Position numbers and translations under genes: made by a program. The notes beneath the pieces are model-generated. The model saw only the letters and a list, made by a program, of their open reading frames with translations. It ran no database searches and had not been told where the DNA came from. Shown piece by piece: positions 200-33,037 of a DNA stretch of 60,159 bases. The stretch comes from Thermomonas sp. (lineage in GTDB: Bacteria > Pseudomonadota > Gammaproteobacteria > Xanthomonadales > Xanthomonadaceae): the NCBI RefSeq assembly GCF_019104945.1, contig NZ_JAHRWW010000030.1:1-60159 (forward strand), in the 5' to 3' direction. Position 1 is the stretch's first letter. Each line of letters starts with the position of its first letter.

Positions 200-201
200 G
201 C

Positions 202-2364: not shown

Positions 2365-2377
2365 GTGCAGTACGGCT

Positions 2378-2414
2378 GCGGCGGCACGGTACCGGTCATG
2401 CCGCCGCGGTTTTT
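2378..2414 (+). terminator. Rho-independent terminator/attenuator after hcp
   Basis: A 9-bp GC stem (GCGGCGGCA at 2378-2386 with TGCCGCCGC at 2399-2407) is followed by GGTTTTTA. It sits between hcp and tssE inside the cluster, so it probably works as a partial terminator that lowers downstream expression relative to hcp. Confidence 0.75.
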
Positions 2415-2468
2415 ATCCTGCGCGCCAGTGCTGCGATGTGGGCGGATCAACGTTAATGACTAATCGAA

Positions 2469-2969
2469 GTGGCCGCGATGATAAAAGGGTTCGAGCCTAG
2501 CTTGTTTGAAAAGCTATTTGACGATGCGCCTAAAAGCGCGACGCTAGGCCCTGTGTATAAAACGCTGTCGCTCGAGCATTACAAAGAATCCATCGCGCGT
2601 GACTTAGAGGGGTTATTAAATTCACGTGCAGCATTTCAAGAAGAAGACGTGCAGCAGTTTCCGAACTGCAAGCAGTCGCTTATGACCTACGGGCTAGCAG
2701 ATTTTTCAGCGATGAGTCTTGCTAATGCGCAAGACCGCGCAGCCATTTGTCGGTCGCTTGAGCACGCTGTTTCGCGCCATGAGCGCCGCCTCAAGGAGGT
2801 CAGTGTGCAGTTGGATGCGGGAAATCAATTTGCAGGCGGGCTGCACTTCACCATTCGTGCTTTGCTTAATCTTGAGCCTGCGCAGGAGCCTGTCAGCTTT
2901 GATGCAATGCTGCAGCCTACGACGCTGCAGTATCAAGTAAGCCGCGCGCGGCGGATGTTGACCAGCTAA
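2469..2969 (+). CDS. tssE: T6SS baseplate protein TssE (gp25-like)
   Basis: A 166-residue protein related to phage T4 gp25, a baseplate wedge part. The segment SIARDLEGLLNSR is the gp25-family hallmark, followed by NCKQSLMTYGLADFS and IRALL near the C-terminus. Two in-frame starts are possible, GTG 2469 and ATG 2478; neither has a strong ribosome site, and the ATG would shorten the protein by three residues. The stop overlaps the tssF start (TAATG), so the two are co-translated. It follows the terminator-like hairpin after hcp. Confidence 0.93.
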   Translation: MAAMIKGFEPSLFEKLFDDAPKSATLGPVYKTLSLEHYKESIARDLEGLLNSRAAFQEEDVQQFPNCKQSLMTYGLADFSAMSLANAQDRAAICRSLEHAVSRHERRLKEVSVQLDAGNQFAGGLHFTIRALLNLEPAQEPVSFDAMLQPTTLQYQVSRARRMLTS

Positions 2970-5859: not shown

Positions 5860-5889
5860 TTGCATACGCAAGGAGCAGTTGTTTTTTGT

Positions 5890-8613: not shown

Positions 8614-8636
8614 CAACAACAAAAGGAGCGAGAGCG

Positions 8637-8987
8637 ATGGAATATTTTGGAGTAGAGCGCGCCCAGGTATTGGCGCATTGCAGCAGCGTCACACAAGGCC
8701 TTGAGCGTGAGCTGGATCATGTGCGCGGCTGGAACCGCCTGCAGCCAGAACATGTGCTTGATCTTTTAGAGTCTGCTATTCCTTCCGTGCGCCGCGAAGC
8801 GCGCGAGCTGGCGGTGCAGCTTGCCCGTGCACCGTGGCGGATTCATATGGAAACCGCAGCACTGGACCGCCCAAAACTAGCCAGCAATCTTCGCGAAGTG
8901 CAGATCGGTTCTGCAGGGCGCGACTATCGTCTGTGCATCAGCGAAGGTGCGCGCCTGCGTTTAGAAAACATTGTGCAAGTGGGTTAA
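8637..8987 (+). CDS. Unrecognised 116-residue protein between clpV and vgrG
   Basis: A small soluble protein without signal peptide or membrane segment. The first 65 residues look all-helical and contain HVRGWNRLQPEHVLDLLESAIPSVRREARELAVQLARAPWRIHME; the last 40 look like beta strands. It has a clear AAGGAG ribosome site about 10 bases before the ATG, lies 23 bases after clpV, and is co-directional with the T6SS genes. Its place before vgrG suggests a role in loading or delivering the spike or effector, but no family is recognised and no function is claimed. Confidence 0.75.
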   Translation: MEYFGVERAQVLAHCSSVTQGLERELDHVRGWNRLQPEHVLDLLESAIPSVRREARELAVQLARAPWRIHMETAALDRPKLASNLREVQIGSAGRDYRLCISEGARLRLENIVQVG

Positions 8988-9035
8988 TTCACAACGCGAA
9001 CAACGGCGGTATGTCACTGCGCTGCAGAGGTGATC

Positions 9036-11951: not shown

Positions 11952-11960
11952 GGATAGGCC

Positions 11961-13418
11961 ATGGATTGGGACGAACTTGAAAATGCACTGGCTTGGTTTA
12001 AATCAGCGCCAGGGGAATGGGTATCTAGTGGCAAGCAGAAGCTCAGTGCGGCCGCACAGTGGATTTGGGAGGTGCTGCAAGGCGACTTCGCAGAAGAACA
12101 ATCTACCGCGCAGGTCATTACGGGTACGGTGATATCCTTGATTCCGGGCGTCGATCAGCTCTGTGACGTGCGCGATCTGATTGCCAGTTGCCGAAAGGTC
12201 TATGAAGACACTACGAATAAGTGGGCTTGGGTGCTGCTGTGTGTGACCCTAATCGGCTGTATCCCGGAATTTGGCTCGTTGTTCAAAGGTTGCTTCAAGG
12301 TGCTGTCGGCCTATGGCCGTAAGGCGTTCGTGCACGCAGGTACGGGCGCTTTTGACTCGAATTTATGGAAGGTTAGTGCGCCCTTCGTCGAGTCTGGTAT
12401 CCGTAAATTAAACGAATTTATGGCGCGTCCGGAAGTGCGCAAAGCGATCAAGGCGGCAAAGTGGTTCAATCCTTACAAAGAGCTGGCAAAACTGGTGCGT
12501 AAGCTCAGTGGCAGCCTGACGGCCAGCAAGCTAGTGGGGCAATTTGACAGGCTCATCGCCGTGTTCCGCGATTTTGCCGGCATGATCAAAAAATGGGGCA
12601 CCTCCGCCATGGGCGAGGATGTTGTGCACCTGTTAGGCAAGGTCATGCACGTTCGCAATTTGGCTCACGCGAAGCTAGCTGAAGTTCTGGCGCCGGTGCA
12701 GAACTGGCTGAACCGTTTGGCCAAGCGGTTGGAGCTGGAAGCGGAGATGAAATATCCCGCGCACACAGACACACTCAACCCGCATCATTTCAGGCGCTTG
12801 AGCAACGATGCCGAAGAAGTTGGCAAGTTTGAGAAGAAGCGGCCCGCTTGGGTGGATAAGGGGAAAGGGAAGTTCAATGCCAGGCGCGCTGCGCCAAAGC
12901 AAAAAGCAGGCTTCCCAGATATCGGCGACTCCGCACCAAAACCCTTAAATGCCGCCTATGCCAGCTTTCACGGCACGATTAATGATGTGACGTACCCTCC
13001 AGGTACGGTGCTCTATCGCATTGTGGACCCCGCATCAGCCGATAATAGCCATTGCTGGATGACCAAGGCCGAGTTCGATAAGCTGCGTAGCAAGGCCGAC
13101 TGGCGACGCAACTTCGCGGTCAAGGCCCATTGGAACGCCAATGGCGAATATGTCACCTACACCGTGCCGCCGGGAAAGCCATTGAAGGCATGGGAGGGGC
13201 AAGTAGCTTCGCAAAATTATCTGGATGCCAATAAAAAGCCTCTTTATTCACTGCAGGGCGGTGCGCGGCAGATCGTGCTCGATCCAAATCACCTCGACCC
13301 CAAACACATAAGCAAACGCCATTCTACAGGTTGGGGCTACAGCAACTTTGGCGAGGGTGTCGATCTGGTCGGCGTCCCCGTACTCACTAACCATTGGTAT
13401 ACCCCGGACAAGAAATAA
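11961..13418 (+). CDS. Probable T6SS effector (polymorphic toxin)
   Basis: A 485-residue protein encoded directly after vgrG. Residues 45-118 carry a hydrophobic block (VITGTVISLIPGVDQLCDVRDLIA; WAWVLLCVTLIGCIPEFGSLFKG) that recurs in N-terminal parts of T6SS and other polymorphic toxins. A helical linker follows, with a basic stretch at 290-315. The C-terminal domain from about 340 looks like a separate enzyme: YPPGTVLYRIVDP at 345-357, YTVPPGKPLKAWEGQVASQ at 400-418 and LQGGARQIVLDP at 431-442. The last two resemble the 'PL..W.G.VA.Q ... GG..Q' pattern of NAD-degrading TNT-like and ADP-ribosyltransferase-fold toxins. That activity is inference; effector status rests on position, build and the adjacent immunity-like gene. 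Confidence 0.75.
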   Translation: MDWDELENALAWFKSAPGEWVSSGKQKLSAAAQWIWEVLQGDFAEEQSTAQVITGTVISLIPGVDQLCDVRDLIASCRKVYEDTTNKWAWVLLCVTLIGCIPEFGSLFKGCFKVLSAYGRKAFVHAGTGAFDSNLWKVSAPFVESGIRKLNEFMARPEVRKAIKAAKWFNPYKELAKLVRKLSGSLTASKLVGQFDRLIAVFRDFAGMIKKWGTSAMGEDVVHLLGKVMHVRNLAHAKLAEVLAPVQNWLNRLAKRLELEAEMKYPAHTDTLNPHHFRRLSNDAEEVGKFEKKRPAWVDKGKGKFNARRAAPKQKAGFPDIGDSAPKPLNAAYASFHGTINDVTYPPGTVLYRIVDPASADNSHCWMTKAEFDKLRSKADWRRNFAVKAHWNANGEYVTYTVPPGKPLKAWEGQVASQNYLDANKKPLYSLQGGARQIVLDPNHLDPKHISKRHSTGWGYSNFGEGVDLVGVPVLTNHWYTPDKK

Positions 13419-13421
13419 GCC

Positions 13422-14408
13422 ATGTCGACACCTTTGATACCTCAAGAAATCTATCTACTAGAACGCTACAGTAGCAAAGAGTATTTTTTGCCGGTACGCG
13501 ATGGCTGGGAGGCCGTTGTGCGCCATGTGGAGCGTTGCTTGCAATTGTTCATGGAACAGCTACCACCGGATTACCGTAGCCGCAGGTTGCAGTTTCAGCC
13601 AGATATCGTCTGGGGGGAGCGCGTATTGCCGAACTTTCGTAGTACCCTCGATGACCTATTCAGCGCCTACATCCGAGTGACGCATGGCGACTTACAGATG
13701 CTGGGTGCGGCTTCTCAGGTCAGAAGCGACAACCGTGGTGCGGCCGAATTTTCGTCGGCATGGATGGATGAACCATCAGTGGCGCGTGTGATCCCGGACG
13801 CAGACCGGAAATACGATGAACTCTTGAGGGCTGCAATGGCGCATACCGGGAACATTGAGTTCACGATTCGAGCACAATGGGCGGCCACGGAACTCACGAC
13901 GCGCTATCACGAAAGTCGCGGCCCGCTCAATCCGCCGGAACGCTGGCCACGTTATCGGCTCAATCCTGCCGTTCAGGTCAAGACGGGTGATCCTGTGCCG
14001 CAGACCGGCATTTACCTGCCGGATGTAGATCAGGGGTGCGCCACGCTGCTAATTAAGGACGACGAGGCCCTAGAAGCTGAGGTGCTGATCCGCATACATG
14101 AGAGTTTTGATGAGGATGGAGTCAAGTATGACGAGTACGCCCTCACCGAGCGGCGCCCCACCCACTGGACACTCGTCGAACGCGTACCCGGCGAGTTCGT
14201 GGATGACCCACTTGCTGACTTGCTTCAAGGGGATTCTGCGTCAGCTCGCATTGAGCGCGTACCCGCTGGTCAGCCTTGCCCACGCACGGGCTGGTGGTAC
14301 ACCCCAGCCAAATTGGACTCACGCCGTCGGTTTGTGGAAGGCGAGGTGTTTCCGGCAATCGAGAGCAGTGATTATGGTGCGACGTTTTGGTTGTGGTCGC
14401 AGGAGTAG
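13422..14408 (+). CDS. Probable immunity protein for the adjacent effector (Imm71/72-like)
   Basis: A 328-residue protein starting three bases after the toxin stop. It has no signal peptide, so it should act in the cytoplasm, which fits a cytoplasmic toxin. The C-terminal part holds two related motifs: VKTGDPVPQTGIYLPDVD and VPAGQPCPRTGWWYTPAK, the latter followed by SRRRFVEGEVFPAIESSDYGATFWLW. The PCPRTGWWxTPA pattern is what I recall for Imm71/Imm72-type immunity proteins of T6SS toxins. The first motif looks like a degenerate copy of the second. Assignment rests on this motif plus gene order. Confidence 0.7.
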   Translation: MSTPLIPQEIYLLERYSSKEYFLPVRDGWEAVVRHVERCLQLFMEQLPPDYRSRRLQFQPDIVWGERVLPNFRSTLDDLFSAYIRVTHGDLQMLGAASQVRSDNRGAAEFSSAWMDEPSVARVIPDADRKYDELLRAAMAHTGNIEFTIRAQWAATELTTRYHESRGPLNPPERWPRYRLNPAVQVKTGDPVPQTGIYLPDVDQGCATLLIKDDEALEAEVLIRIHESFDEDGVKYDEYALTERRPTHWTLVERVPGEFVDDPLADLLQGDSASARIERVPAGQPCPRTGWWYTPAKLDSRRRFVEGEVFPAIESSDYGATFWLWSQE

Positions 14409-22686: not shown

Positions 22687-23958
22687 ATGAAACGTCGAAA
22701 TTTTGTATTAGGTGCCGCAGGCTTAGGAGTCGCTGCGCTGTGGTGGGCAAAACCGAGTGACCACGGCGCGCCATATTTACCCTATTTTCGTGCACTGAAC
22801 GAAGAGCTTAAGCGTAACGGGCCGATGGAGCCTGTGTTGGTGATTGATCTTGATCGCCTCGATCAAAACCTTGATCAGGTCATGCACACGCTTAATTCAG
22901 CCAATAAGCACTATCGCATTGTCGAAAAATCGCTGCCTTCGCCAAAACTGATTGACTACATTGCAAAGCGCTCTGGTTCGCATCGATTGATGTCATTCCA
23001 CCAGCCGTTTCTCAACCATGATGCAGAAATTTTTCCGCATTTTGAAATTTTGATGGGCAAGCCTCTGCCTGTGCAGGCAGCGACGCGTTTCTACCAAGAC
23101 TTAAAGGGTGAGTTCAACCCTACGAAGCAATTGCAATGGTTATTCGATACACCGCAGCGGTTGTTGGAGTATGTCGAGCTTGCCAAAGGACTTGGAACGA
23201 CTCTATTGGCGAGTCTTGAGATCGATGTGGGCCTGCATCGCGGCGGTGCGCGCAACAATGCGGAACTCAAGGCCATGCTTGATGTAATCGCTGCGCACCC
23301 GCAATACCTAACGTTATCAGGGTTTATGGGCTACGACGCGCATGTGGGCATGGGTGTCCCGCCTATTTTAGGCAGCCCGCAAGAACTACTCGCGAAAGCG
23401 ATGGTGCGCTACCAAGGCTTTGTCGATTTTGCCCGCAGTGAATATGCGGCACTGTGGCGTGATGGCCTCACACTCAATGCAGGCGGTAGCCCAAGCTATG
23501 CGCTGCACGCGGGTGAGGCTTTGAGTAACGATATTAGCGTGGGCACGGCGCTGCTCAAGCCCACCCATTACGATATTGAAACCCTAAAAGCGCACGTGCC
23601 CGCTGCGTTTATCGCCACACCTGTATTGAAGAAAGTAGGCCCCATTATGCTGCCTGCCATTGATCAACGCTCACGAATTTTTTCATGGTGGGACCCCAAT
23701 CAGCGCGAAACCTATTTCACCTACGGTGGCTGGTGGCGCGCCGACTACGAATCCCCCAAGGGTTTGCAGTTCAACGCGCTGTTTGGCCACAGCGCCAACC
23801 AAGAAATTGTGAACGGCTCCCCTGCAACGGGGTTAAGCGTCGGCGATCAGGTGTTCTACCGCCCGCAAATCAGCGAATCGGTACTGCTGGAGTTTGGCGA
23901 TCTCGTCATTTTGCGCGGCGGCAAAATTGTGGACCGCTGGCCGGTGTTTGTGGCATAG
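22687..23958 (+). CDS. Tat-exported PLP-dependent enzyme, alanine racemase N-domain/DSD1-like
   Basis: A 423-residue protein. The start MKRRNFVLGAAGLGVAALWWA is a Tat-like signal. It is followed by PVLVIDLDRLDQNLDQVMHTL, matching the alanine-racemase-type barrel of D-threonine aldolase and D-serine dehydratase-like (DSD1) enzymes, and later LEIDVGLHRGGARNNAELKAML, LSGFMGYDAHVG and LTLNAGGSPSYALH. The C-terminal half has the DSD1-type VGDQVFYRPQISESVLLEFGDLVIL. ATG 22687 is preferred over 22633, which lies inside the MFS gene. An exported PLP enzyme beside a sugar oxidase is unusual; its substrate is unknown. Confidence 0.8.
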   Translation: MKRRNFVLGAAGLGVAALWWAKPSDHGAPYLPYFRALNEELKRNGPMEPVLVIDLDRLDQNLDQVMHTLNSANKHYRIVEKSLPSPKLIDYIAKRSGSHRLMSFHQPFLNHDAEIFPHFEILMGKPLPVQAATRFYQDLKGEFNPTKQLQWLFDTPQRLLEYVELAKGLGTTLLASLEIDVGLHRGGARNNAELKAMLDVIAAHPQYLTLSGFMGYDAHVGMGVPPILGSPQELLAKAMVRYQGFVDFARSEYAALWRDGLTLNAGGSPSYALHAGEALSNDISVGTALLKPTHYDIETLKAHVPAAFIATPVLKKVGPIMLPAIDQRSRIFSWWDPNQRETYFTYGGWWRADYESPKGLQFNALFGHSANQEIVNGSPATGLSVGDQVFYRPQISESVLLEFGDLVILRGGKIVDRWPVFVA

Positions 23959-24036
23959 CCACTCTGTTTTCACTAGGGTGACATTGAAACCACGTAGGCA
24001 TATGATTTCCACTTGGCGGATGAGAGGAGGCTTTCC

Positions 24037-24570
24037 ATGCGCGCGTTGCTGATTGTATCGGTGTCTCTTTTACTTGCATCGGCAGTGGGTGGCGTCTCGG
24101 CACTTTGCCGAAAGAACACCAACTTTCCCTTGATTGATAAAGGGATGACGCTGGATGAAGTGACCAAGCTGATCGGCAAGCCAGTTAGTGCAGAAAGTGG
24201 ACCGGAAGACTCTAAGGTTCTGTTTTACTGCCTCGCATCGTCGTTCCTAGATACAGACGGTAGCGACACGCGTGAATACTGGGTCCAGATGATGGGTGGC
24301 AAGGTCATTGGCTATGGCGAGCGCAATGACGCCGCTTCTATGCAGCGCGCCCAACGCCAGTACGCCGCAGCATGGGCCAGTGCGAATATGATCGTAAATA
24401 GTACAAATCAAGCTGCCGATAGGATGACCTACACGAGCGCACCTGTTGTAAAGACACAAGTTAATGTTCAGCAGAGTACGTTAGTCCAGCCTGTGGCGCC
24501 TGCGCCGGAAACTACCCAGCCAGCGAATGGTCAATCAATACCCGATTGGCGCAAATGGAAGCCGTTCTAG
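24037..24570 (+). CDS. Exported protein with a BamE/SmpA-like motif
   Basis: A 177-residue protein with an N-terminal signal peptide (MRALLIVSVSLLLASAVGGVSA). After it comes IDKGMTLDEVTKLIGKPVSAESG, which follows the 'i.kGMt.eeV..llG.P' pattern of the BamE/SmpA fold. There is no convincing lipobox around the Cys. The C-terminal third is Pro/Gln/Thr-rich and disordered. The ATG at 24037 has a strong GAGGAGG site 6 bases upstream. It is the last host-like gene before the accessory region. Confidence 0.65.
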   Translation: MRALLIVSVSLLLASAVGGVSALCRKNTNFPLIDKGMTLDEVTKLIGKPVSAESGPEDSKVLFYCLASSFLDTDGSDTREYWVQMMGGKVIGYGERNDAASMQRAQRQYAAAWASANMIVNSTNQAADRMTYTSAPVVKTQVNVQQSTLVQPVAPAPETTQPANGQSIPDWRKWKPF

Positions 24571-24701
24571 CCTTCAGGTGCATTGATTTTTACGTTTGGC
24601 AGGTGAGTTCATCCCCGATTTGCTGGACGGCCTCGTGGCCGGGCATATCCACACCTCCCGAGGTTAGCGACTCGTGCTGTGGTGGATTTTCCCGTGATGG
24701 G

Positions 24702-25352
24702 CTAGAGCAGAGGCGGCTGTTCGCCCAGTTCCTGAGGCTCGTCGCTGAAAGTGGTGGCCCCCGGTGCTCCAATCGCTTCAATGGGCTCGCCGTAGAGCGT
24801 GAAGTTCGGAATCCGCAGCGGCGGCACGAACCGGAGTTGCTCGTCGGTGTCCTTTTTCAACGCCTCTCTAAGCTCCATGAGGAGGCGACCGAGTACATTT
24901 TCGCCCATCAATGTTTCGCCGTCCTGCATGAGGATTGCGCCCCAGTACTCGTCCTTTCTCGACTGCTCAACGATGGGCTTTTCCTTGGTGGCGAGGAGCA
25001 GACGACCAAACTCCTTGTAGTGCTGTGCGAGCTTCACTCTCAAGCACCAGCGCATCACCTTGTGACGAACGTTATCCCAATCGCTTCGGGTGGCCCTTCT
25101 GTGGGGCTTCCCCTTCATCTTCGCGGTCATCGGGCTGTGTTGCGCAATGATCTCCCGTTGCACGTCGGGCAGGTCGGGGAATCGACATGCTTGGTAGAGC
25201 GCCTCACTTGTTGGAACCCTGAACCCGTTGATACGCAGGGGGAAGCCTGCGGCCATGTTGGACAAACCGCCGAAACTCTCCTTTGTCTTGTGAACCACCA
25301 CAGATTCAGAGCGGAGATACTCGCGAAGGTTTTTGTTTGTCTCAGAAATCAT
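24702..25352 (-). CDS. NADAR-domain protein (YbiA-like), third gene of a dinD operon
   Basis: A 216-residue protein. Residues from about 20 carry the NADAR fold: ESFGGLSNMAAGFPLRINGFRVPTSEALYQACRF, RSDWDNVRHKVMRWCLRVKLAQH, a LLATKEKPIVEQSRKDEYWGA segment and MGENVLGRLLMELREAL. NADAR enzymes are N-glycosidases acting on modified riboside intermediates, and some remove ADP-ribose from guanine in DNA as antitoxins. The start used, ATG 25352, overlaps the stop of the upstream gene by 11 bases; the frame is open to 25436. The last 45 residues are a Pro-rich tail. Downstream, 24571-24701 holds no gene. Confidence 0.85.
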   Translation of the reverse strand: MISETNKNLREYLRSESVVVHKTKESFGGLSNMAAGFPLRINGFRVPTSEALYQACRFPDLPDVQREIIAQHSPMTAKMKGKPHRRATRSDWDNVRHKVMRWCLRVKLAQHYKEFGRLLLATKEKPIVEQSRKDEYWGAILMQDGETLMGENVLGRLLMELREALKKDTDEQLRFVPPLRIPNFTLYGEPIEAIGAPGATTFSDEPQELGEQPPLL

Positions 25353-26385
25353 CTGGCTTACCGAACACATTTTCAGCGGATGCGTATGTCTTTCTTGGAA
25401 GGAGGGGGTACCAGCTAAACGGGCCAGTTTTTGCATCGGGATCGCCCCACCAAAGCGCCAGCGGGCAATTGTTTGGACAGTTCCTGTAAGTCGCTATTAG
25501 CGATCCGAATCCTACTCCGAACATGCTGAAGCCGAGTGGGCGAAGCACGCTTTTTGGGTTTGCGATTTTGCCTCTGATCTTGACTCCCGCGATCAAGAAC
25601 TCTTGTTCCAGCACCTGCCTCCCTTCCTCAGAAGAGAAGAACATTGTCTTTCCGCCGGGTTGTCTCAATTGGTGGGGATAGCGCTGCTCGCTGGCGACGT
25701 AGGCTTGGACTTCCGGTATGGCCGGAATACTCGAAGGCCACAGTACATCGGAGGTGTATTTCCAATACGCTTGATTCTGAACTTCAAGAATCCGCCAAAA
25801 GTTGACGGTTATGTCTTTCTTTGAGTCTGCAATAGCTTTCTTCAGGCGCTTGCTACTCAGGTAGTACTGCCCTCCAGTGTGGAAGGCGATCAAGATAATT
25901 TGCACTACCGCTTTCTTCGGGGCGTCGTTGGCGATCCACTTTTCAAGGTCGCTTGCGATTCGGTTGCCGGAGAAAAGAACATCATCAAGATAGATGAAAT
26001 CGCCATTCGCCGATCCGCATTTTGCGATATCCAGATTGAATTGCGCCTTGAGACGCTCGCCAAGCAAGGCAGTCATATGCTTCTGACTTTGGCCGTCTTG
26101 TTGGATGCGAAGAAAATTAGACGCGGCCCAATAGGCGGCGGGATTACTTCCAACCAAGTTCGTGTGAGGTAAAAGCTCATCGAAGAACGTGACCACGTCC
26201 GAACTCTCGACGAAAGAGTGTCGGATCACATGATCGAATTCGCGCAAGAACGGAAGTTGTTGGTCTGGCGAGAATTGACTGGCCCAGCGGTCAACATGAG
26301 CAGGAGTAGGCGGCGGAATCTCGCCTTCCCTGTAGGTGCGGATGCTATGGGCAATCGAGGCTAGTAGATCGTTTCTCTCAGTCAT
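25342..26385 (-). CDS. Phosphoribosyltransferase-like conflict protein
   Basis: A 347-residue cytoplasmic protein. At residues 129-145 it has FIYLDDVLFSGNRI, which fits the phosphoribosyltransferase PRPP-loop pattern (four hydrophobics, D-D, two residues, T/S-G). The rest resembles the PRTase-like proteins described from prokaryotic conflict systems (PRTase-CE); I recall the pattern but have not searched. The ATG at 26385 is chosen for the G-run about 9 bases upstream; a GTG at 26415 overlaps the dinD stop. The gene is flanked by dinD upstream and NADAR downstream with overlapping ends, so the three are one operon. Base composition is visibly richer in A/T than the flanking host genes. Confidence 0.65.
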   Translation of the reverse strand: MTERNDLLASIAHSIRTYREGEIPPPTPAHVDRWASQFSPDQQLPFLREFDHVIRHSFVESSDVVTFFDELLPHTNLVGSNPAAYWAASNFLRIQQDGQSQKHMTALLGERLKAQFNLDIAKCGSANGDFIYLDDVLFSGNRIASDLEKWIANDAPKKAVVQIILIAFHTGGQYYLSSKRLKKAIADSKKDITVNFWRILEVQNQAYWKYTSDVLWPSSIPAIPEVQAYVASEQRYPHQLRQPGGKTMFFSSEEGRQVLEQEFLIAGVKIRGKIANPKSVLRPLGFSMFGVGFGSLIATYRNCPNNCPLALWWGDPDAKTGPFSWYPLLPRKTYASAENVFGKPDDF

Positions 26386-26411
26386 CTTGCTGTCCCCCCC
26401 GGCAGCTTCGT

Positions 26412-27242
26412 TCACTTGGATTTCTTTGTCGCCTTTGGCTTGTCCAGCTTTTTCATTTCACGGTCAACTTTCTTGAGGCGCTTCTGGACGCCCTGGACGT
26501 CCTCCTCAATAGCGAGGTGCTCAGGCGCGGTGCCGCTGTTCTGAATCATCATGCGGCGCACTTCGCTACCTACGTCTTGTGCGGTGCGCTGTAGGCTGTT
26601 CAGCCCGCTGACGTTCTTGCTCTTGATTCGTGCTGCTGTCTGCGTCACGCGGAACAGGTTGCCGGCAAGCTCCTCCAACCCCATGAAGTCATACAAGGTC
26701 TTGCCTTGTGGCATCCCCTTGAGGGCTTGGAGATCGCGCAGGCTCATGTTGTACATGCCGCGAAAGCCGGCGTCCTTGAAGATGCCGAACTCGGTGGTTT
26801 GCAGTCCGCCATCCCGCGCAGCACCGGTCATGGTCTTTTCGGCGATCTTGAGGTCCTCGCGAGTTTCGAGGCGAGCGAGATCCGCAGATTCGACACGCTG
26901 TTGGATGAGGGTGTCTGCGATGGCGGCAAGCGCGGCCTTCGCTTCCGCGACCTCCTGTTTCTTCGAGTCGGCCGTCATGGACACCAGCAGGCACGCAAAG
27001 CGTGTGAGCCGATACGTCTTGACGATTTTCCCGCCTTCGATCACTTCTTCGCGGGTGAATGCTTCGGTCGGATCGAGCCCGAGGCGAGTGCAGGACCCCA
27101 TCGCTTTGGTGATAACGCCTTGGAACGATTGCCAAGAGTCGTATCCAAGCCAGCCCATGAGCTGATGGGCGTACCAGAAGCGGGAATCGCCGCCGTCGTG
27201 AGCGCTATCCTCGAATGCCTGAAGCGAGAAGTTTGTCGTCAT
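26412..27242 (-). CDS. dinD: DinD-like DNA-damage-inducible protein
   Basis: A 276-residue protein matching E. coli DinD along its length: FWYAHQLMGWLGYDSWQSFQGVITKA at the start, TTEFGIFKDAGFRGMYNMSLRDLQALKG and LYDFMGLEELAGNLFRVTQTAARIK in the middle, and DVGSEVRRMMIQNSGTAPEHL near the end. DinD of E. coli is SOS-induced and disturbs RecA filaments. ATG 27242 gives the family N-terminus; the frame upstream to 27359 is non-coding leader. A TATGAT -10 (minus strand, 27270-27275) lies just upstream with only a weak -35. I found no clear LexA box. It is the first gene of the dinD/PRTase-like/NADAR operon. Confidence 0.85.
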   Translation of the reverse strand: MTTNFSLQAFEDSAHDGGDSRFWYAHQLMGWLGYDSWQSFQGVITKAMGSCTRLGLDPTEAFTREEVIEGGKIVKTYRLTRFACLLVSMTADSKKQEVAEAKAALAAIADTLIQQRVESADLARLETREDLKIAEKTMTGAARDGGLQTTEFGIFKDAGFRGMYNMSLRDLQALKGMPQGKTLYDFMGLEELAGNLFRVTQTAARIKSKNVSGLNSLQRTAQDVGSEVRRMMIQNSGTAPEHLAIEEDVQGVQKRLKKVDREMKKLDKPKATKKSK

Positions 27243-27310
27243 CGGTTTGCTGCCATATATGCTGAATGCATCATAGGACAGCGCCCAAGAACTTGCAGCG
27301 GCTGGGCAAC

Positions 27311-27334
27311 AAAAAGGCCACCCTTCGGGAGGCC
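27311..27334 (-). terminator. Terminator upstream of dinD, minus-strand orientation
   Basis: On the minus strand GGCCTCCC, a GAA loop, GGGTGGCC form an 8-bp stem with one mismatch, followed by TTTTT. It lies upstream of dinD, so it does not end that operon. It is well placed to be the terminator of the tRNA-Ser transcript before the 5.6-kb element inserted, and now blocks read-through into dinD. No other gene lies in 27335-27428. Confidence 0.65.
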
Positions 27335-27428
27335 CTTTCACCCATCTAGCCCAGCGCATCAGGCGTAGCAGATGTTTTAGGAGGGTAGTTCCGGAACCAC
27401 TTGGCCGGAGCCTCTAGCTATTGGATAA

Positions 27429-27443
27429 CTGGCGGAGAGAGGG
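27429..27443 (+). repeat. attL: left copy of the tRNA-Ser 3'-end repeat
   Basis: CTGGCGGAGAGAGGG, identical to 33023-33037. It matches CCA, acceptor stem and start of the T-arm of the tRNA-Ser gene on the minus strand. The base after it differs between copies (T here, G at the tRNA), which sets the edge of the shared core. Confidence 0.85.
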
Positions 27444-27574
27444 TCTGCCTAAGTAGCGTTTTTCCTAGTCCGTGCCGATTTTTCATTAAATGCTTAAAGC
27501 CGCTACGTGCCTACGTTGTAGAGATAATTAGTCCGCAAGCGTCCATTGCGTGCCGTCCGTGACTTTGGTAAAAA

Positions 27575-27595
27575 GTATGGGACAAAGTATGGGAC
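27575..27595 (+). repeat. Arm-type repeat, left (int-proximal)
   Basis: Two GTATGGGAC units separated by AAA. The same 21 bases recur at 32949-32969 in the same orientation. In the circular form the two copies would lie on either side of the attachment core, 54 and 131 bases away. This is the layout of integrase arm sites. The copy is in the leader of the integrase gene, so bound integrase could also repress its own synthesis. Confidence 0.65.
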
Positions 27596-27611
27596 AGAGG
27601 TTAGGCGGACG

Positions 27612-28844
27612 ATGGCAAAGAAGCTGGAAAAGCTGGTGGCCAAGCACCTGTTGAAGCTGCCGCCAGCCATGCACAACGACGGCGCGGGGCTGTATCTGCT
27701 GGTGCGGGAGACCGGCTCGCGCGTTTGGATTTTTCGCTACCGCGACCGCGTGACCGGCAAGCTACGCGATAAGGGGCTGGGATCGCTCAATGACATCACG
27801 TTGGCCCAAGCCCGCGTGGAAGCCAACAAGCTGCGCACTGCACTGCAAACGGGCGTTGACCCCATTCAATCGCACCGTGAGGCCGTCCAAGCGGCCCGCG
27901 TGAAGCGCGCCAAAGAAAAGACCTTCGGCGACTGTTGCGCGGCCTATATCAAGGCGCACAGGCCGGGCTGGCGTAATGCCAAACACGCGCAACAATGGCG
28001 CAACACGTTGGACGCCTACGCCGCCGACCTGCTGCCGCTGCCCGTCAATGAAATTGACACCGACCTAGTGCTGAGTGTGCTGGAACCGATCTGGGCAACG
28101 AAAACAGAGACCGCGACGCGCGTCCGTCAACGTATTGAAAGCGTGCTGGACATGGCCAAGGCGCGCGGGCTGCGACGTGGCGAAAACCCGGCCCGTTGGC
28201 GTGGACACTTGCAAAACCTGCTGCCGGAGGTGGCGAAGGTGAAAACAGTCATACCACGCGCGGCATTGTCGTATGAGGATATGCCCGCGTTCTGGCAAGA
28301 CCTGAGCAAGCGCAATACGCTGGCCAGTTTGTCCCTGCGGCTGCAAATCCTGACCGCGACGCGGCCCAGTGAAGCCGTCGGCGCGCGCTGGGAGGAAATC
28401 GACTTGAAGGCGAAGCTATGGACGATTCCGGGTGAGCGCATGAAGGCGGGCAAAGAACATCGAGTGCCGCTATCCGATGCGCTTGTCACCATGCTCGAGG
28501 CGATGCCGCACCGTGATGGTGCGCTCTTTCCGGGTGGTGGTCGCAATCCGACGTTGACCACCGACGCCGCGCAAAACCTTGTGAAGGCAATGCGGCCGGG
28601 GCTGACCGCGCACGGGTTCCGTTCCACGTTTCGCGACTGGACGGGCGACCAAACCGCCTACCCGCGTGACGTAGCGGAAATGGCGCTGGCCCATGCGATC
28701 AAAGACAAAACCGAAGCCGCCTACCGTCGGCGTGACATGCTCGAACGCCGCGCGCGCCTAATGCAGGATTGGGCGACGTACTGCACCCAAGGCCCGGCGC
28801 AATCTGGCACCGTGACACCGATCCGCAAGCAGGCGACCGCCTGA
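27612..28844 (+). CDS. int: Tyrosine recombinase integrase (P4-type, DUF4102 N-domain)
   Basis: A 410-residue integrase. The N-terminal arm-binding part (KLVAKHLLKLPPAMHNDGAGLYLLVRETGSRVWIFRYRDRVTGKLRDKGLGSLNDITLAQARVEA) is the DUF4102 form found in tRNA-targeting islands. The catalytic part shows the first Arg in TATRPSEAVGARWEEID, HGFRSTFRDW and the ending ALAHAIKDKTEAAYRRRDMLERRARLMQDWATY with the nucleophile Tyr. The start ATG 27612 is preferred over the frame opening at 27546, which would translate the arm repeat as KYGTKYGT. It reads away from attL, as is usual for these elements. Confidence 0.93.
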   Translation: MAKKLEKLVAKHLLKLPPAMHNDGAGLYLLVRETGSRVWIFRYRDRVTGKLRDKGLGSLNDITLAQARVEANKLRTALQTGVDPIQSHREAVQAARVKRAKEKTFGDCCAAYIKAHRPGWRNAKHAQQWRNTLDAYAADLLPLPVNEIDTDLVLSVLEPIWATKTETATRVRQRIESVLDMAKARGLRRGENPARWRGHLQNLLPEVAKVKTVIPRAALSYEDMPAFWQDLSKRNTLASLSLRLQILTATRPSEAVGARWEEIDLKAKLWTIPGERMKAGKEHRVPLSDALVTMLEAMPHRDGALFPGGGRNPTLTTDAAQNLVKAMRPGLTAHGFRSTFRDWTGDQTAYPRDVAEMALAHAIKDKTEAAYRRRDMLERRARLMQDWATYCTQGPAQSGTVTPIRKQATA

Positions 28845-28936
28845 CCGAACACCCGCACCTAGCCCGACGGGGCGAAAACGCCGTTCACCCTGCGGCGCTG
28901 GTGCGGGAACTTTTCAGGGGCGCGAGGGTGAGCGAT

Positions 28937-29413
28937 ATGGCGATTACGCCGCTACTCAATCTTTACGATGCACAGGGCGGTGTGGAAGGCGCTGGTCGCG
29001 CACTGTGCGCCGAGATTGCCGACCGACTTAGATACGGTGCGCTGGACAAGGAAGGCTTAGAGCTTGTTGTAAGTATGTTTGAGCGTGTTGCTGCTGGTGA
29101 AGATGCCAACGTGGTTCTACTTGTCACGCGCACGCACCGGCCCAAGAAGAGCGGGCGCGACCTCTGGATATGGCAACGGGTTTGCGAACTACTGGAAGAA
29201 AAAATGCGGCCCAGTGATGCGTATCGGGTTGTTGCCAGCGAGTTGGAGACATATGGCGAGCCCGTTGAAGCCAAAACTGTGAAGAACATCTTCCTGCGAT
29301 ACCAAGCTGGCGAGAGATGGCTAAACACCGAATATGGCGAGCCCATTGATGCCAAAGCCGTGAAGAAAAGTTTCCTGCGGTACTGGGATGACGCCAAGCC
29401 GAGGGGCGAATAG
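28937..29413 (+). CDS. Small element protein with internal duplication
   Basis: A 158-residue protein I do not recognise. The first 90 residues are helical (VEGAGRALCAEIADRLRYGALDKEGLELVVSMFERVAAGED). The C-terminus has two near-identical units, ETYGEPVEAKTVKNIFLRYQ and TEYGEPIDAKAVKKSFLRYW, encoded by an 81-base tandem duplication. ATG 28937 has GAGGG about 8 bases upstream; GTG 28928 is an alternative. No membrane segment is present. Position after int and before the AlpA-like gene suggests a regulatory or recombination role, which is not shown. Confidence 0.65.
   Translation: MAITPLLNLYDAQGGVEGAGRALCAEIADRLRYGALDKEGLELVVSMFERVAAGEDANVVLLVTRTHRPKKSGRDLWIWQRVCELLEEKMRPSDAYRVVASELETYGEPVEAKTVKNIFLRYQAGERWLNTEYGEPIDAKAVKKSFLRYWDDAKPRGE
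29251..29384 (+). repeat. 81-bp-period duplication inside the small element gene
   Basis: Two copies of about 53 bases, starting ATATGGCGAGCCC at 29251 and again at 29332, are spaced 81 bases (27 codons) apart and keep the reading frame. Differences are mostly silent or conservative (Val/Ile, Glu/Asp). Confidence 0.8.
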
Positions 29414-29493
29414 GCCCGAAAAGGTAGGGAGACTTACTCGGGCATATTCGAGGGTATGCAATCCATCCGTCCATAAGGATAGGAGTGGATTAA

Positions 29494-29694
29494 ATGCAAC
29501 CCGAAGCAATCCCGACTTATCGGCCGCTAGTCACGGCTTGCGCGGAACACGGCATTAGCCGATCCGTTGCGTTCGAGCTGGCCAAGTCTGGCCTGTTGGC
29601 GACGTTCACCATAGGCGCGAGGCGCTATGTCTATCTGGACAGTCTGCGCACCTTGCCGGAACGGCTGGCGGTTGAAGCCGCAAAGGCGGCCTGA
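29494..29694 (+). CDS. AlpA-like small DNA-binding protein (excisionase type)
   Basis: A 66-residue protein with a helix-turn-helix ACAEHGISRSVAFELAKSGLLATFTIGARRYVYLDSL, of the MerR/AlpA-like excisionase type found beside P4-type integrases. It would bind the element's attachment region or promoters and favour excision or activate transcription. It has a clear AGGAG site about 8 bases before the ATG and is followed one base later by the next gene. Confidence 0.75.
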   Translation: MQPEAIPTYRPLVTACAEHGISRSVAFELAKSGLLATFTIGARRYVYLDSLRTLPERLAVEAAKAA

Positions 29695-29695
29695 C

Positions 29696-30010
29696 ATGAC
29701 CGCACAAAAACAAAACCCGCACGGGCTAGGTGCGGGCTTGTGCAAGCTGTCGAGCGAGGCACAGGCCAAGCATAGCAAATCAACGGCCACAAAAGCGCAG
29801 CAAGCCCGCGTGTTGGCGTTGTTGCGTGAAACGCCATGCTCAACGGCTGAATTACGCAAGCACGGCATCTTTTGCCCTGCGCCGCGTGTTCTGGAGTTGC
29901 GCGCACAAGGGCATGTAATTCTGACCGCACGCGAAACCTACACCGACGAAAACGGCTATCACCACCGCAACGCTGGCCGCTATGTGCTGCTACGGGAGGC
30001 GGAAGCATGA
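29696..30010 (+). CDS. Winged-helix-like element protein
   Basis: A 104-residue basic protein. Residues 30-75 (ATKAQQARVLALLRETPCSTAELRKHGIFCPAPRVLELRAQGHVI) read as a winged helix, and the end HHRNAGRYVLLREAEA as its terminal strand. Similar small proteins often precede phage primase genes. ATG 29696 is just after the stop of the AlpA-like gene, and the stop overlaps the primase ATG. It is probably a regulator or replication accessory of the element. Confidence 0.65.
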   Translation: MTAQKQNPHGLGAGLCKLSSEAQAKHSKSTATKAQQARVLALLRETPCSTAELRKHGIFCPAPRVLELRAQGHVILTARETYTDENGYHHRNAGRYVLLREAEA

Positions 30011-32130
30011 ACGTCAACCTGCAAAATTACGCCGCGATTTATCAGGCGGCAGGGTTTATTCCGCTGCCGATTCTGCCAAACAGCAAGCACCCGGCCTGCA
30101 AGGGCTGGCAGGCTGGCACCGCACCGGAGGCGTTCGCATCGCATCGCGGCAATATCGGGTTGACCTTTGGTGCTGGCCTTTTCGTGCTGGATGTTGACGT
30201 AAAGAACGAAGCCAATGGGTTGGCCACACTTGAAGGGTTAGAGGCCAAGTATGGTGAACTACCGGCGACACTGACCGCTGAGACTCCAAGCGGAGGGCGT
30301 CATATCGTTTTCAGGAAGCCCGAAGGCGTGATGCTACGCAATCGCGTAGGCGTTATGCCGGGGTTGGACGTGCGCGCGGTTGGCGGCTTCATCGTGGCCG
30401 AACCGTCAATGCTGGACGGCAAGAACTGGCACTGGAACGACTGGCAACCCGATACGGGCGAATTGCCGGAGATTGCCGACGCGCCACAATGGTTGCTTGC
30501 TGCTATTTCCAAGCCCGCACCAGAGGCCGCAGAACGCGCTGCAAGCGCCAATGCTGGCATTACCGACGCTTACACCACGCGCGCGCTGGAACGCGCCACA
30601 AGCGCCGTTCTAAGTGCTGCTGAGGGTGCGCGTAATGACGTACTCAACGCCGCCGCCTACGGGCTTGCACGGCTGGCCGCTGCTGGGCGGTTAGATTGGG
30701 GTCAGTGTGATCATGTATTGACCCGTGCCGCGCGTGCTGCTGGGCTTGATGATGGCGAGATTGCAGCCACACTCGCCAGCGCCTACGCGGCTGGAGTGGC
30801 TTCACCGAATCATGAAGGTGAGCCGGACACGGGCGAGGAAGCGGAACCGTTGCTGCTGCCGGTATCGGTTGGCGACGTGCTAACCAATCCAAGCCAGCCG
30901 CCGCGTTTCGTGTGGGGCCGGTATCTGCCGCGTGGTGTGGTGGCGCTGCTGGGCGCGCATGGTGGCACTGGCAAGAGCACCATTGCGCTAATGCTGGCGG
31001 TTGCCGTGGCCAGCGGGCAGGAATTGTTCGGCATTGAAACCGAACGCTGCCGCGTGCTGTTTGCGAGCTTCGAGGATGGCGGGGCAATCGTTCGCCACCG
31101 GCTCGAGACAATCTGCAAGGAATGGTTCATTGAACCGGCAGAGCTTGAAGGGCATTTGGTCATCGTGGACGGCACCGAATCGCCGGAGTTGTTCACCACC
31201 ACCGCGCGCGATGTGGGGAGCGTAACGCCAACCTATACCCAGTTGGAGGCGATGGCCGAAGGGGCTGGGCTGGTGATCGTGGACAACGCCAGCGACACAT
31301 TCGGAGGTGATGAAATCAACCGGCGGCAGGTGCGCGCGTTCATGCGTTCACTGGGGCGCATTGCCAAAGCGAATGATGCTGCTGTGCTGCTGTTGGCGCA
31401 TGTGGACAAAAACACCAGCCGGGCAGGTAAGGCGACCAATGGCGAGGGCTATAGCGGCTCAACGGCATGGCATAACAGCGCGCGTTCGCGGTTGTTCATG
31501 GTGCGCGATGAATCGGGCGAGCTGAAGCTATCGCACCAGAAAACGAACTTCGGGAAGGTTCACCCGCCGCTGCTGCTGGATTGGCCAGAGGATGGCTTGC
31601 CGCAGTTGTCCCATGCGCAACCTGGCCCTGCTGCTGCCGATTCTGGTCTGCTGGCTGAGTTGGACACGCGCGCGCTGTTGGCACTGATTGCCGAGTTTTC
31701 CGAACGCGGCGAACACGTCACCACCGCCACCACCAGCCGCACCCATGCGGCCAAGCTGCTGGCCAGTGAGCCAACCTTCCCAAGGAGCCGAAAGCCTGCC
31801 GAGGTGTTTACCTTGCTACGCGAGGCGGAAAGGCGGGGCCACCTTGCCCGCGTGAATGTCACGATGGAAAACCGCAAGCAAAAAGAAGTTTGGGAAGTCA
31901 CCGCCGAAGGTCGGGCGTTTGCTTGGCTTGCGCCGACTGCGCCGACTGCGCCGACTTCACAAGTGGATGCACTAGGCGCACTGGACGCAGAGAAGTGCGC
32001 CGACTGCGCCGACTTCGAAGCGGGGGTTATAGGGGGAAAAGAGAGCGCACAAGTCAGCGCAGAGGTGAGCGCACCTACAAGCAAGAAACCCGGCAAGACG
32101 AAGGCCAAACATTCCAAATCGCCAGCCTGA
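30007..32130 (+). CDS. PrimPol-RecA-like replication protein of the element
   Basis: A 707-residue protein. Residues 1-165 are a bifunctional primase-polymerase domain: FIPLPILPNSKHPACKGWQAG, the metal site LFVLDVDVKN and TPSGGRHIVFRK. A helical linker follows. Residues about 300-520 form a RepA/RecA-like ATPase (AAA_25): GAHGGTGKSTIALMLAVAVASGQ (Walker A), VLFASFEDGG, LVIVDNASDTFGGDEINRR (Walker B) and VLLLAHVDKN. The tail is low-complexity with Ala-Pro-Thr repeats. Such proteins start replication of satellites and small plasmids. The start ATG 30007 overlaps the upstream stop. The 3' end holds iteron-like repeats. Confidence 0.9.
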   Translation: MNVNLQNYAAIYQAAGFIPLPILPNSKHPACKGWQAGTAPEAFASHRGNIGLTFGAGLFVLDVDVKNEANGLATLEGLEAKYGELPATLTAETPSGGRHIVFRKPEGVMLRNRVGVMPGLDVRAVGGFIVAEPSMLDGKNWHWNDWQPDTGELPEIADAPQWLLAAISKPAPEAAERAASANAGITDAYTTRALERATSAVLSAAEGARNDVLNAAAYGLARLAAAGRLDWGQCDHVLTRAARAAGLDDGEIAATLASAYAAGVASPNHEGEPDTGEEAEPLLLPVSVGDVLTNPSQPPRFVWGRYLPRGVVALLGAHGGTGKSTIALMLAVAVASGQELFGIETERCRVLFASFEDGGAIVRHRLETICKEWFIEPAELEGHLVIVDGTESPELFTTTARDVGSVTPTYTQLEAMAEGAGLVIVDNASDTFGGDEINRRQVRAFMRSLGRIAKANDAAVLLLAHVDKNTSRAGKATNGEGYSGSTAWHNSARSRLFMVRDESGELKLSHQKTNFGKVHPPLLLDWPEDGLPQLSHAQPGPAAADSGLLAELDTRALLALIAEFSERGEHVTTATTSRTHAAKLLASEPTFPRSRKPAEVFTLLREAERRGHLARVNVTMENRKQKEVWEVTAEGRAFAWLAPTAPTAPTSQVDALGALDAEKCADCADFEAGVIGGKESAQVSAEVSAPTSKKPGKTKAKHSKSPA
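31929..32013 (+). repeat. Iteron-like TGCGCCGAC repeats in the primase 3' end
   Basis: The 9-mer TGCGCCGAC occurs three times in tandem (31929-31955) and twice more in tandem (31996-32013). The first set encodes Ala-Pro-Thr, the second Cys-Ala-Asp, because it is read in a different frame. Conservation of the DNA word across frames points to a DNA-level role, such as initiator binding at an origin. About 35 bases on, AGCGCA recurs three times at 12-base spacing. Confidence 0.5.
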
Positions 32131-32186
32131 AACTGCAACACCAATCCCGACGTGAGTCGGCATATCCCAAAGAAGGAAACAACACA

Positions 32187-32486
32187 ATGGAACACAAAAC
32201 CAATGGCACCGATCCAGATCCAGATACCGACGCAACGCCTTGGCTTATGTCGGCAGATGATTGGGCCAATCAGCCGCCGCCTACGTGCGCACAGGAGGCC
32301 GCAGAGCTTGCGCGCGATGCTTCCAGCTACTTGGATAGCGGGAACTATGAAAGCGCCGCATGGCGGCTTGCAGATGCCTTAACGTTGATTGCCAAAAAGT
32401 GTGTACCTGCTGCCGCTGGTATTGGCACCTACACCGGCAGGGGCGCAAGGTTGGACGTTGATCCAGCCCAAGGGTTCAAGCGATAA
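32187..32486 (+). CDS. Hypothetical small element protein (99 residues)
   Basis: An acidic protein (MEHKTNGTDPDPDTDATPWLMSADDWANQPPP) followed by a helical hairpin AAELARDASSYLDSGNYESAAWRLADALTLIAKK. I recognise no family. It has an AGAAGGA site 9 bases before the ATG and lies 57 bases after the primase-like gene. Nothing in the sequence tells its role. Confidence 0.55.
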   Translation: MEHKTNGTDPDPDTDATPWLMSADDWANQPPPTCAQEAAELARDASSYLDSGNYESAAWRLADALTLIAKKCVPAAAGIGTYTGRGARLDVDPAQGFKR

Positions 32487-32601
32487 GGCTAACCGCTGCC
32501 GCTGGTGCCGGGGGGCGTCTAAATAATTCCAATCGATCAGCGCCGGAAACCGCGCCGGGTTCCCATTTAGAGATTTTTCCCTATAAAAAGAAAGGGGTAA
32601 T

Positions 32602-32886
32602 ATGACGAAATCAAGAGAACAACACGGTGGCAAGCGTGCGGGCGCTGGACGCAAGCCGGTTCCGCCGGTATCAGTTGAGGGTGCGCCGGATATGCTGGCC
32701 TTGTTGCAGGACATTGCACTAGGGAAGGTGGACGCGAGTCCTAATCAGGTAAAGGCGGCTATTGCGGCGATTCGGTACACGCATGAACCCGTGAGCCCAG
32801 CGAAGAAGAAACAGCCTGCGGAAGATTCCGACGATCCGTTTGGCTTGTCGCTGAGGTGGCCGTTCGGCGAGGCTGAGGCGGAATAG
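32602..32886 (+). CDS. Small basic phage-type protein (terminase-small-subunit-like N-terminus)
   Basis: A 94-residue protein beginning MTKSREQHGGKRAGAGRKPVPP, a basic flexible DNA-binding motif common at the N-terminus of phage terminase small subunits. A short helical region DMLALLQDIALGKVDASPNQVKAAIAAIRYTHEP follows. It is shorter than a usual terminase subunit. A small packaging-related protein would fit a satellite that redirects helper-phage packaging, but this is speculation. An AT-rich TTTTTCCCTATAAAAAG just upstream may be its promoter; AAAGGGG is the ribosome site. Confidence 0.6.
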   Translation: MTKSREQHGGKRAGAGRKPVPPVSVEGAPDMLALLQDIALGKVDASPNQVKAAIAAIRYTHEPVSPAKKKQPAEDSDDPFGLSLRWPFGEAEAE

Positions 32887-32948
32887 CGCTGGCGAATCTG
32901 AGGTGTGGGCCGTGGTGGACTAACTCTCGAGGGTGACCCGCGCCCAAG

Positions 32949-32969
32949 GTATGGGACAAAGTATGGGAC
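32949..32969 (+). repeat. Arm-type repeat, right (tRNA-proximal)
   Basis: Identical over 21 bases, and in the same orientation, to 27575-27595: two GTATGGGAC units joined by AAA. It ends 54 bases before the attR core. Together the two copies flank the core once the element is circular, which suggests integrase arm-binding sites. No gene lies between 32887 and the tRNA. Confidence 0.65.
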
Positions 32970-32985
32970 GGGGTCATACGGGAAA

Positions 32986-33010
32986 CAAAAACCCCGCAAA
33001 AACGCGGGGT
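32986..33010 (-). terminator. Element-borne terminator for tRNA-Ser
   Basis: Read on the minus strand, ACCCCGC and GCGGGGT form a 7-bp stem around a T-rich loop, followed by TTTTTG. It lies 14 bases past the CCA end of tRNA-Ser, inside the element. The element thus supplies a new terminator for the tRNA it interrupts and shields its own genes from antisense transcription. Confidence 0.8.
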
Positions 33011-33022
33011 TAGTGGTGGTGT

Positions 33023-33037
33023 CTGGCGGAGAGAGGG
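33023..33037 (+). repeat. attR: tRNA-Ser 3'-end copy of the core repeat
   Basis: Same 15 bases as attL at 27429-27443. It lies within the 3' end of the intact tRNA-Ser gene, including CCA, so insertion leaves a complete tRNA. Confidence 0.85.

Follow-up and report, generated by a model that had tools for sequence, protein, structure and literature searches.

Introduction

The anti-phage systems that carry DS names were found by DefensePredictor and validated in Escherichia coli MG1655 against 24 phages (PMC13092281). DS-32 is described here in a copy from Thermomonas sp. (contig NZ_JAHRWW010000030.1; the stretch analysed, 60,159 nucleotides long, is hereafter called the window), in which a phosphoribosyltransferase (PRTase)-like gene and a NADAR gene follow a dinD-like gene. 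The gene content of DS-32 was taken from the names of the NCBI models and from E. coli records so annotated; the term 'DS-32' does not occur in the main text of PMC13092281 as far as that text was available. The system is reported as enriched in clinical Pseudomonas aeruginosa isolates (11.32% of 53; PMC12735699), and its mechanism was not found in the literature searched. In PMC11125620, the NADARs under test removed ADP-ribose from guanosine in DNA by hydrolysis, and protection from a toxin was confined to matching pairs. The accessible part of that paper lists four NADAR types of E. coli, none of them PRTase-linked like DS-32. An earlier note on the window had proposed its dinD-like, PRTase-like and NADAR genes as an undescribed three-gene conflict or DNA-repair system.

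Identification of a DS-32 pair

The PRTase-like and NADAR genes of the window are almost certainly a copy of the DS-32 anti-phage system, because both proteins exceed the curated NCBIfam cut-offs. The PRTase-like protein matched NF053875 (DS32_1_antiphage) at 399.6 bits against a cut-off of 250 (residues 7–331, profile positions 1–322 of 322), and the NADAR protein matched NF053876 (DS32_2_antiphage) at 285.1 bits against a cut-off of 240 (profile positions 1–181 of 181). Passing these models bears out the proposal of a conflict system and removes the word 'undescribed': the pair is a further copy of a known defence system, so that the kind of system had been named rightly and the novelty of the trio wrongly. 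The features are as follows.

26412–27242, minus strand: dinD-like gene, 276 residues; adjoins the DS-32 pair and is not part of DS-32 on this evidence
25342–26385 (from ATG), minus strand: DS-32 gene 1, PRTase-like (PRTase-CE), 347 residues
24702–25352, minus strand: DS-32 gene 2, NADAR, 216 residues from the start common to homologues in the alignment
24702–24746, minus strand: NADAR C-terminal tail, residues 203–216 plus stop; low-confidence, probably disordered, ending ...GEQPPLL
27429–33037, no strand assigned: integrative element neighbouring the trio, with tRNA-Ser 3'-end repeats at both ends; not part of DS-32

The three open reading frames (ORFs) at 24702–27242 are all intact and lie on the minus strand in a single orientation. 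The dinD stop and the PRTase ATG are separated by 26 nt, and the PRTase and NADAR genes overlap by 11 nt; co-translation of the three is therefore plausible, in agreement with the overlapping or nearly touching ends described earlier. A GTG at 26415, overlapping dinD, is an alternative start for the PRTase-like gene, and the longest NADAR ORF is 24702–25436, with homologue alignment placing the start at the ATG at 25352. A consensus scan for sigma-70-like promoters gave 0 sites in 24450–27560 (shuffles, mean 1.3), a result that is little informative for such a genome. A 290-residue open frame on the plus strand, antisense to NADAR (24546–25418), is probably a by-product of codon usage.

Distribution and locus sample

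Forty-nine other PRTase loci were collected: one from genome contigs, three from a plasmid collection, nine from genomes, 34 from viral contigs and two from E. coli. Matches under the DS-32 cut-off (G300, 25.9 bits; G1026, 22; G969, 23, with stops), short duplicates and the window's own copy were excluded. NADAR adjoined PRTase, with PRTase first, in 48 of the 49; in the remaining locus, L002, the contig ends within the PRTase gene. PRTase matches over the cut-off were found in 3 of 398 genomes at the level of the phylum, 4 of 369 for the class, 4 of 299 for the order and 2 of 198 for the family, and in 2 of 48 and 1 of 11 genomes in the remaining surveys; the surveys overlap, and known positives are counted again in each. 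The pair was matched in 63 of 5426 complete E. coli genomes, with 43 of the matches covering at least 80% of the query. The two E. coli copies examined in context (L017, L018) lie in lambdoid prophages and have no dinD. Two near-identical E. coli strains carry an IS5 insertion in the PRTase gene and retain the NADAR gene.

Among the nine genomes besides the window's own, dinD was present at the locus in none; five loci were type I restriction-modification (R-M) operons, two were flanked by a helicase and a DUF1156 methylase, and two had neither. The helicase and methylase loci, L010 (2671–11367) and L011, form a second kind of host operon, with DS-32 nested between the methylase gene and a helicase gene bearing helix-turn-helix (HTH) and NOV_C domains (domains scanned in L010 only). 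In the closest relative by PRTase (L027, 2463–5180; 58% identity), an HTH gene and a primase-like gene come after the pair and resemble in kind the element next to the trio of the window, and in another near relative (L028, 3591–4382) a BRO-N-antirepressor-like gene lies upstream of PRTase; these names were given from reading. The lambdoid prophage with the insertion-interrupted DS-32 (L018, 2527–4100) also bears, a few kilobases away, a DUF3037 and HipA-family kinase pair that looks like DS-6 as described in the available part of PMC13092281.

The dinD-like gene as a neighbour

The window dinD-like protein matched PADLOC PDC-S13 at 254.6 bits, which favours the DinD identity given earlier, and the NCBI DinD equivalog NF008573 at 175.5 bits, under the cut-off of 242, which does not; it had no Pfam match. 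At least 1.2 kb upstream of PRTase was visible in 45 of the 49 other loci, and dinD was found in one of these 45, truncated (L002). Fewer than 450 bases precede the PRTase match in the other four (L027, L029, L058, L059), where dinD would be unseeable or only partly seeable. In L002, a Rhodanobacter metagenome-assembled genome (MAG), only the last 71 dinD codons are left (97% identical residues), and the PRTase frame is open to the contig end.

For the reverse count, 92 dinD loci (6 plasmid, 86 viral) were examined, the dinD-alignment search having retained the best 80 of 243 loci. DS-32 PRTase or NADAR occurred in 0 of the 92. Downstream sequence of 1.5 kb or more was visible in 74 of these loci, and sequence of that length on one or the other side in all of them. 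As a positive control, the same two profiles found 49 of 49 and 48 of 49 of the PRTase loci. From the rarity of dinD beside DS-32 and this reverse count it follows that the trio is not a conserved system; its genes are juxtaposed locally at a tRNA-Ser hotspot, in an arrangement old enough that one relative shares part of it. The conserved trio of the earlier note thus failed its co-occurrence check. Co-occurrence with dinD elsewhere is nearly absent, with the Rhodanobacter MAG as a partial exception, while the PRTase–NADAR pair itself recurs. Most probably, DS-32 does not require dinD, which came to lie next to it in this lineage.

A regular partnership of dinD with type I R-M, considered from a PADLOC Specificity_I match (96.8 bits), was dropped, an hsdM-like gene being present in only 1 of the 92 dinD loci. 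The dinD proteins of L077, L139, L151, L156 and L162 end in QLSLFDD[MF], a near-perfect sliding-clamp motif; the clamp pattern is present in 7 of 75 distinct dinD ends, five of them as QLSLFDD[MF], and the window dinD has no such motif.

The tRNA-Ser site and the neighbouring element

An exact 15-bp direct repeat of the tRNA-Ser 3' end at 27429–27443 and 33023–33037 bounds the element, which contains an integrase-like ORF (27546–28844) and a primase-like ORF (29872–32130), both named from reading the sequence. The trio sits just outside, between the element and a gene for a pyridoxal phosphate (PLP)-enzyme-like protein; the tRNA-Ser accessory site of the earlier note is thereby confirmed. Its statement that base composition differs from the neighbours holds towards the element on the right (57–63% G+C, against 52–58% for the trio) and does not hold towards the left neighbour (22.0–24.5 kb, 53–55%). 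The trio as cargo of a tandem element was rejected, no third tRNA-Ser attachment copy being present to its left within 4 mismatches in 23000–27500.

The dnaX-like/tRNA-Ser neighbourhood was compared in 8 of the 20 other searched genomes of the genus, with gene names from reading. In L181 hardly any sequence separates the tRNA from the PLP-enzyme-like gene; in L180 a different 6.8-kb insert lies between two tRNA-end copies, followed by the PLP-enzyme-like gene; and L186 carries the integrase-like and primase-like genes of the window element, with products 93% and 86% identical. The other five had no left-side or element genes of the window within the 15–17 kb taken. The sibling genome L186 (3904–14269) has a further segment before tRNA-Ser in addition to the integrase-like and primase-like genes, so that elements seem to pile up at the tRNA-Ser site. 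Farther away in the window, a run of plus-strand genes at 196–14408, among them ORFs that read as ClpV- and VgrG-like, resembles a type VI secretion cluster by its sequence.

The PRTase-like protein

In Pfam, the PRTase-like protein matched PF24390 (PRTase-CE) at 182 bits. A phosphoribosyl-type loop, DD-x(2)-FSG, is located at residues 134–140, in FIYLDDVLFSGNRI, so that the loop reported earlier stands, as does the NADAR assignment (PF08719, 96.6 bits). The predicted structure (predicted local distance difference test, pLDDT, 86.3; predicted template-modelling score, pTM, 0.87) has the type I PRTase fold and matches solved type I PRTases. Its best structural matches are PRTase-fold chains, the nearest being the pyrimidine-operon regulator PyrR and uracil PRTase. 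The 50 matches listed by VIA-align are PRTase-fold chains, two of them phosphoribosyl pyrophosphate (PRPP) synthetase or its associated protein; the lack of other folds in that listing carries no evidential weight. An ordinary metabolic PRTase, which the earlier note had named as the outcome that would undo its proposal, was ruled out: PRTase-CE was the only Pfam match at E up to 0.1, and DS32_1 the sole NCBIfam match. At the same threshold, no ADP-ribosyltransferase family was among the Pfam matches of the three window proteins. Two weak matches to PADLOC PRTase_III-A were recorded at residues 293–343 (24.3 bits) and 282–333 (21.7 bits).

The NADAR protein and its clamp-type tail

The window NADAR aligns with E. 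coli YbiA (2b3w) at 9e-24 and also passes a riboflavin-intermediate N-glycosidase model (84.8 bits, cut-off 73.7). DS-32 NADARs are longer at the C-terminus than other NADARs, and the added part is confidently predicted to about residue 190; in the window protein, tail residues 203–216 have pLDDT under 50. After exclusion of L009 (extension pattern unmatched) and L057 (truncated frame), 47 tails gave 23 representatives under 80% identity. A sliding-clamp-type motif was present in 17 of these 23 (shuffled tails, mean 0.57, maximum 5), in forms such as QSLSLF, QPSLF, QMELF and QPALF. In unfused DS-32 NADARs the motif lies at most 3 residues from the end in 10 of 17, compared with 11 of 1276 background ORF ends. 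The background ORFs were picked mechanically, and some of them are spurious; among the 11 matches, five come from the dinD proteins with QLSLFDD[MF] at the end and one from the NADAR tail of L057, which is detached. The motif was absent from all 8 readable NADARs outside DS-32 (11 control loci, less the window itself, one unreadable in frame and one under the cut-off), which end shortly after the last core helix.

The published sliding-clamp consensus is QL(S/D)LF at the C-terminus (PMC9690074), and in IS1634 transposases positions 1 (Gln), 4 and 5 (each hydrophobic or aromatic) are the ones kept (PMC4549789). By sequence, the tail suggests a candidate sliding-clamp-binding motif that would place NADAR at DNA. 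In the literature searched, no description of a clamp-type tail in DS-32 NADARs was found, and among the ten titles listed, of 13 papers with both terms, none linked NADAR to the sliding clamp.

NADAR–HsdS fusions in type I R-M operons

Type I R-M operons account for ten of the 49 other PRTase loci. Their gene order is hsdM, PRTase, NADAR-HsdS, hsdR, and in some of them extra genes separate PRTase from hsdM or hsdR from HsdS; the L059 contig begins within the PRTase gene, and its hsdM is not visible. NADAR and HsdS share one frame in all ten. Five fusions were tested against Pfam, with NADAR found in five and Methylase_S in four (not L019), and all five exceed the DS32_2 cut-off. All 6 of the fusion representatives retain the clamp-type motif in their linker.

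L032/L059 and L033/L034 are near copies, and the ten R-M loci correspond to eight rows of the PRTase tree. Set against the labelled rows, the fused rows call for two or more gains or losses, a number equalled by 114 of 500 label shuffles. The window copy falls into a group with five unfused relatives (96/96). Two of the operons carry further genes between hsdM and PRTase: a GmrSD_N gene in L033 (5163–6959), and SIR2-like and HerA-like genes in L061 (4008–7540).

The HsdS fusion and the clamp-type tail together suggest that NADAR is delivered to DNA. No description of a NADAR-HsdS fusion, and no item joining 'NADAR' and 'specificity subunit', was found in the literature searched.

Proposed mechanism and alternatives

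The best explanation overall, which we regard as probable, is a DS-32 pair with an incidental dinD, in which a PRTase-fold writer would be combined with a DNA-tethered NADAR eraser. The outline of the mechanism, a writer and an eraser of ribosyl groups, is offered tentatively. On phage infection, the PRTase-fold protein would draw on PRPP or a related sugar donor to ribosylate a nucleobase, either within DNA or within a nucleotide. NADAR would split the base-ribosyl bond and remove the group, and the clamp-type tail or the HsdS fusion would position this eraser at DNA. Such a pair is the simplest joint chemistry, because the bond between base and ribosyl group that a PRTase forms is of the kind that a NADAR cleaves; the relevance of NADAR chemistry on DNA, suggested earlier, is likely. 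It is a more distant prospect, and an unlikely one, that DS-32 is a replication-coupled base-ribosylation defence, with NADAR on the host clamp or HsdS cleaning host DNA at copying and phage DNA left uncleaned. If true, self and non-self would be coded in ribosyl instead of methyl groups, with R-M operons among the carriers.

Several points weigh against the best explanation given above. Between the window and L002, the run from the dinD C-terminus into PRTase is 88% identical in DNA over 1055 bp, so the juxtaposition is not brand new, and the ratio of non-synonymous to synonymous substitution (dN/dS) of the dinD fragment is about 0.08 on 71 codons, indicating purifying selection (about 0.11, likewise purifying, for the PRTase fragment). 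Among the Pseudomonas strains of one survey, the presence of DS-32 went together with phage susceptibility and not with resistance (PMC12447246). A prophage contig (L057) has an open PRTase frame and a frameshifted NADAR, which, sequencing error aside, speaks against an indispensable role of NADAR. The putative catalytic role of the PRTase-like protein is based on its modelled fold and the acidic loop, and Foldseek alone is weak for this model (best E 3.7e-3; non-PRTase rows, e.g. ORC, from rank 19). The clamp motif pattern behind the 17 of 23 tails was framed after the tails had been seen; six tails (L007, L010, L031, L035, L036, L039) are without it, those of L010, L031 and L036 retaining LF without Q, and the window motif is a weak form, QPPLL, with Q1, L4 and a hydrophobic residue at 5 and no F5.

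A classical toxin-antitoxin arrangement, in which a PRTase toxin kills or stalls the cell and NADAR is the antitoxin, is rather unlikely, although it comes closest among the alternatives. NADARs serve as antitoxins in DarT1-NADAR and YarT-YbiA (PMC11125620), the PRTase–NADAR order is retained in 48 of 49 loci, and the two E. coli strains with IS5 in the PRTase gene keep NADAR. However, no ADP-ribosyltransferase family was matched by the three window proteins in Pfam, one locus (L057) has an open PRTase with a frameshifted NADAR, and the fusion of NADAR to HsdS in 10 of 10 R-M loci is odd for a plain antitoxin.

In a nucleotide-pool defence, the PRTase would use up PRPP or make a dead-end nucleotide and starve phage replication, with NADAR, as a ribosyl N-glycosidase of small molecules, recycling or limiting the product. 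The proximity of the fold to PyrR and uracil PRTase is in its favour, as is the passing of the riboflavin-intermediate N-glycosidase model (84.8 bits against 73.7); the clamp-type tail and HsdS fusion nevertheless indicate DNA over free nucleotides, and we consider this alternative unlikely.

It is improbable that the three genes form one system, in which DinD would detect damage or RecA filaments and regulate PRTase and NADAR. The window genes are tightly spaced, the dinD–PRTase junction is found at 88% DNA identity in the Rhodanobacter MAG, and E. coli ybiA (NADAR) is in a LexA-controlled operon with dinG and with ybiB, which has predicted phosphoribosyltransferase activity (PMC11125620). 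Against these stand the count of intact dinD, 0 of 45 loci with at least 1.2 kb upstream (truncated in one), and that of DS-32, 0 of 92 dinD loci.

A NADAR acting as an offensive glycosylase on modified phage-DNA bases, with the PRTase as sensor or helper, would draw on the splitting of base-ribosyl bonds by NADARs (PMC11125620) and on an HsdS fusion that could direct it to unprotected DNA, but it is equally improbable, as the NADARs assayed in PMC11125620 reverse a DNA lesion and do not make one, and no base-excision partner was noticed beside the pair, where no systematic search was made.

For the preferred explanation, a PRTase-fold writer with a NADAR eraser at DNA, the clamp-type tail and the NADAR-HsdS fusions provide two handles on the DS-32 mechanism, both of which would place NADAR at DNA. 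If both hold, reversible DNA ribosylation would be linked to replication and to restriction-modification, widening knowledge of bacterial nucleic-acid ADP-ribosylation.

Comparison with known systems

The closest described system is DS-32 itself (DefensePredictor; NF053875 and NF053876; E. coli lambdoid prophage copies). The window has the same gene order, strand and near-touching genes, with a PRTase 31% and a NADAR 43% identical to the E. coli pair; it differs in the dinD-like gene upstream and in the NADAR tail, QPPLL as against QSLSLF in E. coli. DarT1-NADAR and YarT-YbiA likewise have the YbiA-type NADAR core (2b3w, 9e-24). The partner of the window NADAR is, in contrast, of the PRTase fold and not an ADP-ribosyltransferase, and the extension and tail at the C-terminus of DS-32 NADARs were absent in 8 of 8 readable other NADARs.

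The LexA-controlled ybiA/ybiB/dinG operon of E. coli likewise combines a NADAR, a putative PRTase and a damage-inducible gene, a parallel by description only (PMC11125620). Resemblance to the PRTase of Retron III-A (PADLOC PRTase_III-A) is weak and confined to the C-terminal part of the window PRTase. Type I R-M operons with embedded defence genes are represented by other DS-32 copies, which lie between hsdM and hsdR with NADAR fused to HsdS, whereas reading the ORF list by eye revealed no hsd gene adjacent to the copy in the window.

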